Shown here: in pieces, positions 616-18,703 of the stretch
Position numbering within the stretch: position 1 is the first letter of the stretch
How the letters are laid out: each line of letters begins with the position of its first letter
Source: a virus
Strand: one strand, 5' to 3'
IMG/VR virus record: IMGVR_UViG_3300025647_000347
Coordinates: 1-20,625 of that record
DNA length: 20,625 nucleotides
Made by a program: the position numbers and the translations under genes
Notes under the pieces: model-generated
What the model was told of the DNA's origin: nothing
The model's input: only the letters and a program-made list of their open reading frames with translations
Databases searched by the model: none

Positions 616-688
616 GACAGAGACCTGGGACTTACACCACTATTGATATTGAGAATCAGTCTCAATAAGTAGTGGATGCCCAGATGTC
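616..688 (-). ncRNA. Structured intercistronic RNA, family B copy 1
   Basis: Read as leftward RNA. Outer stem CTGGG/CCCAG is extended by GACA/TGTC. Then comes the conserved asymmetric internal loop (CAU on one side, UGUAAGU on the other), then inner stem CCACUA/UAGUGG. The inner stem is capped by about 27 nt holding a further hairpin (UUGAGA/UCUCAA). The element starts at the stop codon of the HNH gene (TGA 687-689) and ends 20 nt before the next ATG (596). Compared with copies 2-4, the inner stem differs in sequence on both sides while pairing is kept, which supports a conserved RNA fold. Confidence 0.65.
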
Positions 689-1112
689 AGCGGATGTAGA
701 GTGTTTCAACTCTAATGATTCCTTTATGGGATTTGCGCTGGCCCCTTCGTACTGCACGTAAGTGGCCAGCGTGATAACCATTCTCTTTGCACCAAGTATC
801 AAGTGAATAAATAGTTTCTGTTCTACCATCTTTCCATGTAAGAACATGATATTTAGAATTAGAAACAAAATCACCACTATCAATTGACTTTTGAATATGA
901 CAAGATTTACAAAGTAACTGACACTTCAATGCTTCTTCGTAGCAACGTTTAAATCCGTTGCTAGTAGCAAGCTCACCGATCGCCGCAACTTTAGTTGCAG
1001 GATCTATATGATCAAAATGTAAGCTGTCTGTTGCTCCGCATTTAACACACTTGTTTCCAAATGCATTACGAAGCTTGTCCATTCGCTTCAGGTACTGAGA
1101 AAACTCTTTCAT
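687..1112 (-). CDS. Free-standing HNH homing-type endonuclease
   Basis: A 141-residue protein with a complete HNH nuclease core: a CVKCG zinc ligand pair (residues 22-25), HFDHID (32-37) with the catalytic His, and a second ligand pair in LLCKSCH (66-72). The C-terminal part (about 92-136) contains a SLDTWCKENGYHAGHL segment followed by a basic RRGQRKSHKG stretch. This resembles the helix-turn-helix DNA-binding repeats (NUMOD type) found at the ends of homing endonucleases. Its ATG overlaps the stop of the upstream cistron (ATGA, 1109-1112). The product should cut DNA and may be a mobile gene inserted in this operon. No intron boundaries are evident around it. The gene is followed directly by family B element copy 1. 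Confidence 0.88.
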   Translation of the reverse strand: MKEFSQYLKRMDKLRNAFGNKCVKCGATDSLHFDHIDPATKVAAIGELATSNGFKRCYEEALKCQLLCKSCHIQKSIDSGDFVSNSKYHVLTWKDGRTETIYSLDTWCKENGYHAGHLRAVRRGQRKSHKGIIRVETLYIR

Positions 1113-15270: not shown

Positions 15271-15627
15271 ATGGAAAAACCATCGCCGCAGCCACCAGTT
15301 TTTGGTGAAAATATTGCTGGCCGCATGGCTGATGTAGTACGTAAACTACAGAAGAATCGCGAGCAGCATGCTGGTGTGCGTCGTCCAACACCAATTGCCC
15401 AAAAGGTTTCTCAAGGGCAAGAAGTGATGAATGCCTTAATGGAAAAGAAAGCCAATGAGCAAGAACAAGATGCCTCCAGAACTACTGGAGCACTTCAAGA
15501 AGAAAGAGGCCAAGAACAAGGACGGCAGCGAGATGTCGGACAACGAGAAGAGGAAGGCCGCTTTGGAGAAAGCTCGCAAGTACAAGGAACAGAAGAAGAA
15601 AGGCAACAACGAGGGAAAATAAGGTAG
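15271..15627 (+). CDS. Polar hypothetical protein, C-terminal half overlapped (118 aa)
   Basis: ATG at 15271. Residues 1-62 look like a genuine protein (Pro-rich start, then helix GRMADVVRKLQKNREQHAGV). From about residue 63 the sequence becomes a Gln/Glu/Arg/Gly run (QEERGQEQGRQRD, REEEGRFGESSQ) that lies in another frame over the 55-codon gene at 15455-15622. The two stops are 5 nt apart. Either the tail is real dual coding, or this gene has lost its original stop. Function unknown. Confidence 0.6.
   Translation: MEKPSPQPPVFGENIAGRMADVVRKLQKNREQHAGVRRPTPIAQKVSQGQEVMNALMEKKANEQEQDASRTTGALQEERGQEQGRQRDVGQREEEGRFGESSQVQGTEEERQQRGKIR
15455..15622 (+). CDS. Small Lys/Glu-rich protein in an overlapping frame (55 aa)
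   Basis: ATG at 15455 (MSKNKMPPELLEHFKKKEAK) opens 55 codons ending in TAA 15620-15622, in the +1 frame relative to the gene starting at 15271. The PPELLEHFKKK start followed by a Lys/Ala/Glu helix (EKRKAALEKARKYKEQKKK) has the look of a conserved small phage packaging-region protein. The overlapped frame reads as low complexity here, so this is probably the main coding frame of this stretch. Its location between the terminase genes suggests a packaging or head role. Confidence 0.65.
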   Translation: MSKNKMPPELLEHFKKKEAKNKDGSEMSDNEKRKAALEKARKYKEQKKKGNNEGK

Positions 15628-15631
15628 TATT

Positions 15632-15651
15632 CAGTAATACGCTGATTACTG
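15632..15651 (+). promoter_or_regulatory. Hairpin just before the terL start
   Basis: CAGTAAT/ATTACTG, a perfect 7-bp stem with loop ACGCTG, ends 6 nt before the terL ATG (15658). An alternative stem GTATT/AATAC (15627-15640) would exclude it. terL has no nearby Shine-Dalgarno sequence. AAGG at 15621-15624 would be brought closer to the ATG if the hairpin forms. A control of terL translation is inferred. Confidence 0.4.
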
Positions 15652-15657
15652 CATAAG

Positions 15658-18195
15658 ATGCCTGCTTATCAACACCTTGCTTACCGACGTAACGCACAGG
15701 CTGCTGCACGCAGGCAACAAATTCGAGTTCCACGAAATCTTGAATCCCTGGAGAAAGCACGGGAAGATTTTGGGTTCTTTTGTGAGTATGTAGCAGATAA
15801 ACCACCAGCCGCTCACCACAAAGAATGGCATAGACAGTTTGTTACCGGCAATGATAGTAATTGTTTGATAAAGATTGCCGGTCCAAATGTTGATCTCTTG
15901 GCGCCGAGGGGCTCCGCCAAAAGTACCGTCCTTGGGTTGTTTACGGCATGGGCTATTGGTGTTCACACCATGGCAAAAATGCCGCTACAAATTCTTTATC
16001 TTTCCTACACAGTCGATATTGCTCGATCTAAGTCTGCAACGATTAAACGAATCATTGAAAGCAAGCGCTACCAAGAAGTTTTTCCAAAGGTACGGCTACT
16101 CAAGAACGTTACCAGCAATGAGTATTGGTCTATTGATCACAGGTTTGCAGGTATTGACACCACTGGTGAAGAACAATTCACACTCTGCGCTGCTGGCCTC
16201 AAGGGCTCCGTGACTTCTAAGCGCTCGCACTTGTGCTTGACAGGTGATACACTAGTTACGACCAACGTTGGTCAAGTGCCAATTAAAGCTATTTATGAAG
16301 ATCCAGACCAATACCAAATTGCTGTTAGAAACTCAGAAACAAATCAAATTGATTGGAGCAACGTGGGGGCAGTTACAAGGCGTTTTACCAAAGGCATTGT
16401 TGACATTACAACAGCCTCTGGAAATCGTATTTCAGCAACTCCCGAGCACCCTTTCGTTACGCAAGACGGAAAACAAAAGAGGGCGGGAGATCTTAGTGCA
16501 GGGGATGTCCTTGTCAGAGCATCCAACAGGAGACAAGATAAAGAACTGTCTTTCCTGCGGGGGGCCAAAGAAAAAAACACAACGTATCTGCGAGGCTTGT
16601 TTTCGTACAACACAGGCTTTTCAGGTAAGGCCAACTTGTCCGCAGTGTGGCCAACAGTTTTGCGTAACCTCAAATCGCTTATCCCAACGTCTTTCAAAAA
16701 ATCCATTAGTGATTTGTTGCAGCCATCAGTGTACTGGAGCAGCATCACGAAAGCTTCAGGAAAAATCTTGTCCAGTTTGTCAAGCATTATTTCGACCAGT
16801 CAGTCACAAAACAACTTGTTGCTCGCGGGAGTGTGCGAATCACCTTCATTCACGGCGAATGAAAAAGACTGGGAACAGCAATTACCAACACGGCTGCAGT
16901 TCCAACGATTTTCAGGAAATGAGACCGTTGATTTTGGAAAGGGACAATTTTACTTGCGTTGGATGCAATACAAAGGAGCGGAAGTTGTTATTAAGCAACG
17001 GAACGTCCAGGACAAATCTTTGCGTACATCATATCGACCACAAAAAGACAAACAATATCCCGCAAAATTTGATTACATTATGTCGCCAGTGTCATGTGGC
17101 GCATCATCAGGTAACGGACAAGGCTGGTCGCCCGAGCCCGTTTCCAGAGTTGAGTTTCTTAGCGAAAGAGAGGAGTTCGTCTATGACCTAGAAGTAGAGC
17201 ATTTAGACCACAACTTTATCGCTAATGGTTTAAATGTTTTGAATTGCATAATTGATGACGCGATCAAGTCAGCTGCAGATATTTCTAACCCTGACATCCG
17301 TAAACAGATGCAGGAGAACTGGAATGCGGTGATTGCACCAACAATGTTTGAGGGTGGACGTGCCATCTGTCTTGGTACGCGCTTCAGACATGACGATATT
17401 CACTCCACAACATTCAACCCACAAAACAACTGGATTCAAATTGTGTTGTCCGCCATCTTGAACGACCCTAAAACAGGGGACGAAGTCTCGTATTGGCCTG
17501 AGATGTGGTCACTGGATTACCTGAAAGAAAAGAAGAGGCAAGCACCTATTGCCTTCTCGTTCCAGTACATGAATCAGGTGATCAGACAGAATGAACTGTC
17601 CTTGGCACCAGAGCTTATTATAAAAGCCGAGATCGCCACTGAGTTCGATACGATTGCTGTGGGAGTCGACCTATCTGCTGGTACAAAAGAAAAGAATGAT
17701 TACACGGTAATGACGCTTGCCGGTCGAATTGGCGATCAGATTCACGTGATTGATTACCGCCGGTTGCGTGTCATGGGCAACCTTGAAAAGCTGGATGCCC
17801 TTAAAGAACTTCTTAATGATTGGTCTATCGTGGGACGTGACGAAAACGGAAATTACTATCCGACCTACTCCACATGCGATATTTATTCAGAAGCTGTGCA
17901 ATACCAGGCTTCTCTTGAATCAGACTTCAAGCGTGTTTGTTTAAACAATGAAAATCTTTATAACTTAAATTGGCACGCAGTCAAAGGATTCCGCGCCGAT
18001 AAACTTGCGCGTTTCCGTGGTTGCATGGGTCTTTTTGAAGATCGTAAGATAATTTTCAATCGATTCCGTAACTTCACGGCAATGTTCGAAGAGCTGACGA
18101 ACTTTGGTATTAGCAGTCACGACGATTGCGTCGATAGCTTGGTTTGGGTCATTAACGGTTTGATGCGCAAAGGAAAACTACAGGTTGATTACTAG
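15658..18195 (+). CDS. terL: Terminase large subunit with intein (845 aa precursor)
   Basis: ATPase-nuclease that drives DNA into the phage head. The N-terminal ATPase has Walker A APRGSAKST at residues 82-90. After intein removal (residues 193-529), the next strand reads HLCIIDDAIKS, the Walker B motif, so the insertion lies directly before the catalytic Asp pair. CLGTRF further on fits the coupling motif. The C-terminal RNase H-like nuclease has VGVDLSAGTKEKNDYT (first acidic site) and SSHDDCVDSLVWVI (last acidic site). The spliced protein would be 508 residues, normal for TerL. It is co-directional with the small terminase candidate and the portal. Inteins in TerL often sit at ATPase motifs, where loss by deletion would harm the host protein. 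Confidence 0.93.
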   Translation: MPAYQHLAYRRNAQAAARRQQIRVPRNLESLEKAREDFGFFCEYVADKPPAAHHKEWHRQFVTGNDSNCLIKIAGPNVDLLAPRGSAKSTVLGLFTAWAIGVHTMAKMPLQILYLSYTVDIARSKSATIKRIIESKRYQEVFPKVRLLKNVTSNEYWSIDHRFAGIDTTGEEQFTLCAAGLKGSVTSKRSHLCLTGDTLVTTNVGQVPIKAIYEDPDQYQIAVRNSETNQIDWSNVGAVTRRFTKGIVDITTASGNRISATPEHPFVTQDGKQKRAGDLSAGDVLVRASNRRQDKELSFLRGAKEKNTTYLRGLFSYNTGFSGKANLSAVWPTVLRNLKSLIPTSFKKSISDLLQPSVYWSSITKASGKILSSLSSIISTSQSQNNLLLAGVCESPSFTANEKDWEQQLPTRLQFQRFSGNETVDFGKGQFYLRWMQYKGAEVVIKQRNVQDKSLRTSYRPQKDKQYPAKFDYIMSPVSCGASSGNGQGWSPEPVSRVEFLSEREEFVYDLEVEHLDHNFIANGLNVLNCIIDDAIKSAADISNPDIRKQMQENWNAVIAPTMFEGGRAICLGTRFRHDDIHSTTFNPQNNWIQIVLSAILNDPKTGDEVSYWPEMWSLDYLKEKKRQAPIAFSFQYMNQVIRQNELSLAPELIIKAEIATEFDTIAVGVDLSAGTKEKNDYTVMTLAGRIGDQIHVIDYRRLRVMGNLEKLDALKELLNDWSIVGRDENGNYYPTYSTCDIYSEAVQYQASLESDFKRVCLNNENLYNLNWHAVKGFRADKLARFRGCMGLFEDRKIIFNRFRNFTAMFEELTNFGISSHDDCVDSLVWVINGLMRKGKLQVDY
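16234..17244 (+). mobile_element. Intein inserted at the terL Walker B motif (337 aa)
   Basis: Residue 1 is Cys (CLTGDTLVTTNVGQVPIKAI, block A). Block B is GNRISATPEHPFVT with the TxxH motif. Block F is EFVYDLEVEHLDHNFIANG. The C-terminal end is GLNVLN followed by Cys of the extein. The usual penultimate His is Leu here, which may slow C-terminal cleavage, although the block F His and the terminal Asn are present. Between blocks B and F the terL frame is open but shows no LAGLIDADG or HNH motif, only a Ser-rich, low-complexity linker. The endonuclease lies in the +1 frame over the same DNA (16496-17191). Confidence 0.9.
16496..17191 (+). CDS. HNH homing endonuclease encoded in the +1 frame inside the terL intein (231 aa)
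   Basis: Start chosen at GTG 16496, with GGGAG 6 nt upstream (16485-16489). ATG 16505 is the alternative. The frame is open further upstream, to 16268, but there it reads as a shadow of intein block A/B. Three zinc-ribbon-like clusters: C18-x2-C21 with C32-x2-C35, C48-x2-C51 with C75-x3-C79, and C92-x2-C95 with C109-x3-C113. The HNH core follows: LERDNFTCVGC (147-157), LCVHHIDHKKTNNIPQNLIT (175-194) and LCRQCHVAHH (195-204). The product should cut DNA, presumably the intein-free terL allele. Stop TAG (17189-17191) falls in intein block F. The gene fills exactly the place of an in-frame homing domain but is shifted by one base. Confidence 0.87.
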   Translation: MQGMSLSEHPTGDKIKNCLSCGGPKKKTQRICEACFRTTQAFQVRPTCPQCGQQFCVTSNRLSQRLSKNPLVICCSHQCTGAASRKLQEKSCPVCQALFRPVSHKTTCCSRECANHLHSRRMKKTGNSNYQHGCSSNDFQEMRPLILERDNFTCVGCNTKERKLLLSNGTSRTNLCVHHIDHKKTNNIPQNLITLCRQCHVAHHQVTDKAGRPSPFPELSFLAKERSSSMT

Positions 18196-18227
18196 CCTTT
18201 AGAATTAGAAAAAAGCCAATTCAGGTC

Positions 18228-18524
18228 GTGGGTCCGGAATATATTGCCATTGCTGTAACAGCTGTTGTATCCGCTGTGACAGGTGGTGGCTGGGTAGCCA
18301 ACAAAATTATGGCCCAACAAAATGATCGCATTATAAGGGCTTTTGATTACATTGGATCCCAGAAAAGAAGGATTGATGTTTTGGAAGACGACCTGAAACG
18401 TTTGCCGCTTGAATACGTGCTCAAGGTTGATTTCTTAAGAGAAATTCAACAGATGCATGAAAACTTTACGCAGATCAACGCTAAGCTTGATAAACTGGTC
18501 GAAAAGCTTCTCGACGCGAAATGA
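18228..18524 (+). CDS. Membrane-anchored coiled-coil protein, GTG start (98 aa)
   Basis: GTG at 18228 (MGPEYIAIAVTAVVSAVTGG). Residues 4-24 form one membrane helix, followed by a charged linker and long heptad-like helices (KRRIDVLEDDLKRL and FTQINAKLDKLVEKLLDAK). This N-in, one-helix, coiled-coil design occurs in phage spanin- or holin-associated proteins and in small virion proteins. The sequence cannot decide between them. The stop region overlaps the next ATG by 4 nt (ATGA, 18521-18524), so translation is coupled. Confidence 0.8.
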   Translation: MGPEYIAIAVTAVVSAVTGGGWVANKIMAQQNDRIIRAFDYIGSQKRRIDVLEDDLKRLPLEYVLKVDFLREIQQMHENFTQINAKLDKLVEKLLDAK

Positions 18525-18703
18525 GTTACATCTTAGAAGTCCAAGAGGACGAGAACGGATATCAGTACATTGTTTTTCCTGATGAAGTAACCGAAGAGCT
18601 TGGCTGGGAAGAAGGCGATGTTTTGAATTGGGATGTACGTGGTACTGGCATCGTTATTTCCAAGGTGAATGACGCAGCTGGTTACGAAGTTATAGAAGAG
18701 TAG
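18521..18703 (+). CDS. AbrB/SpoVT-like small protein (60 aa)
   Basis: ATG at 18521 overlaps the preceding stop by 4 nt. Residues 14-50 (QYIVFPDEVTEELGWEEGDV...) follow the swapped-hairpin AbrB/MazE pattern: a beta strand, then P-x-E/D-V, then L-G-W-x-x-GD, then a second strand (GIVISKV). Such folds bind DNA as dimers in regulators and antitoxins. This one is very acidic, so DNA binding is uncertain. No toxin partner is adjacent. It may be a virion-cluster regulator or a structural use of the fold. Confidence 0.7.
   Translation: MSYILEVQEDENGYQYIVFPDEVTEELGWEEGDVLNWDVRGTGIVISKVNDAAGYEVIEE

Follow-up and report, generated by a model that had tools for sequence, protein, structure and literature searches.

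An intein of a cyanophage-type large terminase that very probably carries its homing endonuclease in an overlapping +1 reading frame

The endonuclease of an intein is generally regarded as one of the intein's domains, set free by splicing. In canonical endonuclease-containing inteins it lies in frame with the splicing domain, which is not so at the terminase locus described here. The dCTP deaminase intein of cyanophage CL131 (PMC6293099) also combines a HINT domain with an HNH nuclease, but there the HNH is in frame and leaves with the intein. The inteins of mycobacteriophage large terminase subunits (TerL) include one at the Walker B site, TerL1-e (Kelley et al. 2016, PMC5050341); splicing has been shown for these TerL inteins, and homing-type cleavage for two of the sites. 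Like the intein reported here they sit in the TerL ATPase domain, with Walker B among their sites. In that study, cleavage went with an identifiable HEN domain within the intein, whereas the HNH of the present locus is out of frame.

The nearest precedent is the ShiLan domain (PMC11855218, 2025): a mycobacteriophage methylase gene carries a stop-free insert that encodes an HNH out of frame, and no splicing domain was found in it. In both systems the insert leaves the host frame open and encodes an HNH with zinc fingers in a different frame, and both are sporadically distributed. By contrast, the ShiLan insert has no detectable splicing domain and is presumed to remain part of the protein, whereas the terL insert is a recognisable intein; and the ShiLan HNH occupies the third frame, whereas that of the terL intein occupies the +1 frame and also overlaps intein block B. 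The HNH of one ShiLan member, phage Mantra, is matched by our HNH profile and, at 35% identity, is distantly related in sequence to the HNH of Gordonia phage Clown. An earlier reading of the locus, made from the sequence only, knew of no described example; this holds for inteins, none with an overlapping-frame endonuclease having been found in our literature search, but not for out-of-frame HNH proteins as such, one having been described in 2025 in the non-intein insertion above. A preprint on non-canonical actinobacteriophage inteins that lay outside that search (Gosselin et al. 2025, bioRxiv 10.1101/2025.01.02.630785) is cited in PMC11855218 for frequent overlapping frames in actinobacteriophages; it may cover Clown-type cases and may thus be prior art.

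The sequence analysed is IMG/VR record IMGVR_UViG_3300025647_000347, and the whole stretch of 20,625 nt is called the window. Its terL ORF, intein included, comprises 845 codons on the plus strand (15658-18195) and matches the terminase large subunit family phrog_38 (E = 7e-73) and Terminase_6C; minus the intein, its predicted product has 508 residues. The intein covers 337 codons (16234-17244, plus strand), from C1 (TGC, 16234) to N337 (AAT, 17242), and is followed by a Cys at +1 (TGC, 17245). The ORF itself and the profile matches in the terL frame (Pfam Intein_splicing, E = 5.4e-17; TIGR01445; TIGR01443) bear out the sequence-only reading that this frame is open throughout the intein and holds blocks A, B, F and G. 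On the plus strand, block A, CLTGDTLVTTNVG, lies at 16234-16272 (TIGR01445 and alignment), block B, ISATPEHPFVT, at 16429-16461, and blocks F (FVYDLEVEHLDHNFIA) and G (NGLNVLN) together with the C+1 codon at 17176-17247 (TIGR profiles and alignment). The terL-frame linker (16528-17124, plus strand) is stop-free, poorly conserved and predicted to be disordered. Just past terL, at 18521-18703 on the plus strand, a 60-aa ORF resembles by eye an AbrB/SpoVT-like DNA-binding protein.

In the 18 aligned homologues, each intein is exactly 1011 nt long, the alignment is gapless, and C1, T69, H72 and N337 (T69 and H72 within block B) are invariant; with the Cys at +1, these are the blocks of a class-1 intein. 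None of the aligned homologues has a penultimate His, this residue being L, S, G or A. A penultimate His in block G is usual, not universal, and since some active inteins lack it, we did not take its lack as excluding class 1. AlphaFold modelled the terL-frame residues 1-98 and 298-337, the HINT parts, mostly with pLDDT values of 75-92, and most of linker residues 99-263 with values of about 30. A Foldseek search with this model matched the DnaB mini-intein (E = 4e-7) and VMA inteins, that is, the HINT fold. Judged by these motifs and by the modelled fold, the terL-frame insert is a class-1-type intein with a HINT splicing domain, and would be expected to splice. The site reads KRSHL^intein^CIIDD in the window and KRSHL(V/C)IIDD when empty. 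Intein-free relatives read GLKGSVTSKRSHL(V/C)IIDDAIK, or near variants, across it; the intein therefore interrupts the packaging ATPase in its Walker B motif, at HL^(V/C)IIDD.

The second coding sequence is read one base over. The +1 frame has no stop between 16256 and a TAG at 17189-17191, which falls inside block F, and its protein matches the HNH family phrog_1271 (E = 2e-15), in agreement with the sequence-only reading on both the frame and the place of the stop; the remaining forward frame of the insert contains many stops. With TTG 16349 as the best-supported start, the HNH ORF runs over 16349-17191 (plus strand) and encodes 280 aa. Its N-terminal part (16349-16495, plus strand), which had not been recognised before, carries the pattern xGAxWxQLxxVxPK..LPSTLSLR..EILVxG, is strongly conserved, is modelled with pLDDT of about 70-85 over most of its length and overlaps the N-terminal splicing region of the intein. 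It is followed by three zinc-ribbon-like Cys clusters (16547-16834, plus strand; C67/70/81/84, C97/100/124/128 and C141/144/158/162 in the 280-aa numbering), over which Pfam DZR_2 matches below threshold. Three Cys clusters had indeed been noted earlier, but the Cys pairs of the HNH itself come in addition to them: the core (16955-17095, plus strand) reads C203xxC206 ... VHHID ... N236/N240 ... C245xxC248H249, with the conserved His and Asn and the zinc Cys pairs of an HNH motif, and Pfam HNH models match it below threshold. A fold search with the HNH model, predicted from an alignment restricted to the window and our collection of loci, gave weak matches of HNH type (best E = 0.05). No match was found among solved structures searched with the HNH sequence, and the 14 pattern matches in bacterial and archaeal genomes included no relative. 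The window also encodes a second, free-standing HNH-like ORF of 141 aa outside the intein (687-1112, minus strand; CxxC...HFDHID...CQLLCKSCH).

To ask whether this arrangement is conserved, IMG/VR was searched with the HNH, which yielded 34 loci. The terL frame had no stop across the match in any of them (0 stops in 34/34) and the HNH frame was open in 31/34, while the third frame of the full-length loci contained 11-20 stops. Two independent metagenome contigs (L001 and L002) carry an HNH identical to that of the window. The same intein with a +1 HNH is present in the cultured Synechococcus phage S-EIV1 (TerL, KJ410740), with 62.6% identity in the HNH and 83% in the C-extein. Gordonia phage Clown has the same architecture, inserted one Walker B residue upstream. 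A search by insertion site rather than by HNH gave 29 contigs, in which the HNH was in +1 wherever length allowed a judgement; this included divergent inteins of 313 and 278 residues at the site (L205, L285, L293 and L298). The frame relation is thus the same over HNH identities to the window of 31-100%, and neither search found an inteined terL site with the HNH in frame, the HNH being in +1 in every homologue. In-frame HNH inteins do exist, CL131 (PMC6293099) being one, and an assembly error or recent compensating indels could in principle have put a once in-frame HNH out of frame. The independent contigs, the cultured isolates, Clown and the lack of any in-frame homologue leave this explanation, which the sequence-only reading had itself named as a danger to its proposal, with practically no probability.

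Several observations on individual loci may be recorded here. The 278-aa intein of L298 (1662-2495) encodes a +1 HNH with fewer zinc-ribbon clusters and with another codon at the position of the TTG. The open terL frame begins about 400 codons earlier in L018 and L025 than it does in other homologues. Halovirus HVTV-1 (L275) encodes a free-standing relative of the HNH between terL and the portal gene (1444-2070), and another HNH gene lies just before terL. Such free-standing halovirus relatives adjoining terL are a plausible source of the HNH.

The openness of the terL frame was then compared with expectation. When the synonymous codons of the window's HNH ORF were reshuffled or resampled, a mean of 13.6-18.0 stops arose in the terL frame and none of 20,000 trials was stop-free, so that chance openness is even less probable than had been claimed, the earlier figure of 1 in 10^5 having been too cautious. 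If the HNH protein is held constant, each sequence should contain 3-19 stops in the terL frame, yet the 20 homologues have none, a sum of about 292 expected against 0 observed; these homologues, with HNH identities to the window down to about 31%, are related, and the 292 are not independent events. Summed over homologues, a wobble T of the HNH frame occurs before codons starting with AA, AG or GA, where it would produce a terL stop, in 0/1363 cases and elsewhere in 1311/4231 (31%); the permutation and position tests correct only partly for shared ancestry. Clown taken alone shows weaker stop avoidance (P(0) = 0.02), for which the high GC content of its genome is the probable reason. This pattern also bears on a rival reading, in which the insert is an intron that carries a free HNH ORF and is removed at the RNA level, and the terL frame owes its openness to chance or composition alone. 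HNH nucleases are common residents of group I introns. Even so, an intron is very improbable here, given that the terL frame has the blocks and the fold of a HINT domain, that no Rfam match lies within 15600-18300 and that terL stops are avoided (0/1363).

Substitution patterns delimit where each frame is constrained. The terL-frame synonymous difference is 0.54 in both exteins and mostly 0.05-0.29 over the HNH gene, and at the ends of that gene the codon-position rates pass from the terL pattern to that of the HNH frame and back again. Constraint is confined to the terL frame up to about 16338 and acts on both frames between about 16340 and 16495, with amino-acid identities of 0.62 (terL) and 0.69 (HNH) and low synonymous differences in both; block B is held in both frames because the same bases also code for HNH-frame residues. 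Between 16496 and about 17120 the stronger constraint is on the HNH frame, whose synonymous difference is 0.47-0.51 versus 0.54 in the exteins. Both frames are constrained again from 17123, and past the HNH stop terL alone. As the wobble positions of the HNH are the first positions of terL codons, the terL amino acids of the linker are essentially free except for stops and frame-breaking indels. Judged by these comparisons, the terL-frame amino acids drift near-neutrally over most of the linker, and the edges at blocks B and F are constrained in both frames. Taken together, the computations show that both frames are coding and that both are held open by selection. The earlier proposal of selection on both frames is upheld by the stop avoidance and the synonymous drop, but over most of the linker this selection acts only against stops and frame-breaking indels.

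The same patterns bear on where the HNH starts. The sequence-only reading had placed the start at a GTG preceded by GGGAG (16485-16498, plus strand). These are not conserved and we abandon them: GTG is found at 16496 in 4/16 non-redundant full-length homologues, the others having GTA, GTT, GTC, ATA, ATC or ATT, and selection on the HNH frame sets in at about 16340-16349, some 150 nt upstream of this GTG. ATG 16295 and TTG 16319, considered as starts, are unlikely, since codon periodicity upstream of about 16338 is that of terL only. Where this selection sets in, the sole NTG codon is TTG 16349, kept in 16/16 non-redundant full-length homologues and also in the divergent L205 and L285; the codon at this position is TTA in L008 and L017, and CTA in L298. 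It is the best candidate but not a proven one, because the terL frame accounts for part of its conservation. No canonical start is universal among the homologues compared, and a Shine-Dalgarno sequence ahead of TTG 16349 is absent in the window and seen in 1/16 homologues. On this evidence, the HNH is probably made as a separate protein by internal initiation at TTG 16349. The main alternative is that ribosomes on terL shift by +1 near 16340 and produce a fusion of the TerL N-extein, the N-terminal part of the intein and the HNH. The exact +1 relation of the frames and the mid-gene onset of HNH selection, with neither a Shine-Dalgarno sequence nor a universal canonical start, would fit such a shift. 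It is nevertheless unlikely, as 16336-16350 contains no stop, rare codon or recognisable +1 slippery site, the TTG is retained in the homologues listed above, and free-standing relatives of the HNH exist in haloviruses.

The intein is precisely present or absent among close relatives, as expected of a homing element. L285, which has it, and L227, which is empty, are 96% identical upstream and 99% downstream over 1.5 kb on each side, with an exact junction; junctions are likewise exact between L297 and L267 (about 97% in the flanks) and between L009 and L185 (93-97%). In a comparison that left out the window's two identical contigs, the window's C-extein was 95% identical to that of an empty relative versus 85% to that of the nearest inteined one. 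Such near-identical flanks with and without the intein indicate recent mobility. In L015, the HNH is dead by nonsense and the terL frame is intact; in the 211-aa inteins of L297 and L281, HNH nonsense is accompanied by in-frame loss of 126 codons, again with the terL frame intact. Copies with a dead HNH and a preserved terL frame are what a homing cycle predicts, because the nuclease can decay and splicing cannot. The decayed inteins of L297 and L281 apparently mark a path to a mini-intein. Many intein-free TerLs (terL loci L155-L273) already have Cys at +1, so that no co-conversion of this residue would be needed for splicing after invasion; the closest empty relatives of the window have Val. 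Mobility and decay also bear on another function for the HNH, that of a packaging nuclease partnering TerL, with the overlap domesticated. The position of the intein in terL would suit this role, and HNH proteins are described as assisting phage packaging by Kala et al. 2014, as cited in PMC12613952. The existence of near-identical phages without the whole insert and the persistence of HNH-dead copies make it improbable.

Very probably, then, the locus is a mobile Walker B intein of a cyanophage-type TerL, and the coding sequence of its homing endonuclease overlaps it in the +1 frame. Translation in the terL frame would give a HINT domain (blocks A, B, F and G) split by a disordered stop-free linker, whose self-excision would leave a working TerL. 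Ribosomes starting within the gene, most likely at TTG 16349, would translate the +1 frame into a separate protein, a zinc-ribbon HNH nuclease of about 280 aa; it would cut intein-less terL alleles, and repair would then copy the intein in. That the intein splices, that the HNH is expressed from its own start and that the terL site is cleaved are steps that we infer from sequence.

We regard the chances as about even that these loci form an undescribed class of 'overprinted' inteins, in which splicing and homing would be carried out by two proteins from the same nucleotides, and which would be old, common to cyanophages, other aquatic phages and a Gordonia phage, and doubly constrained at block B and the nuclease N-terminus. 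The overlapping-gene signature behind this proposal is unusually strong, no stop having been met where the 20 homologues would be expected to hold hundreds. The locus would also be an intein-borne counterpart to the puzzling ShiLan insertions, in which splicing would explain how the host gene survives despite an out-of-frame nuclease. For annotation it is a caution, as the records of S-EIV1 and Clown list only the terminase at this locus and no HNH. If the reading is true, splicing and nuclease are uncoupled as proteins and locked together as DNA: mutations that kill homing can spare splicing, and control of the nuclease need not follow that of the host gene.
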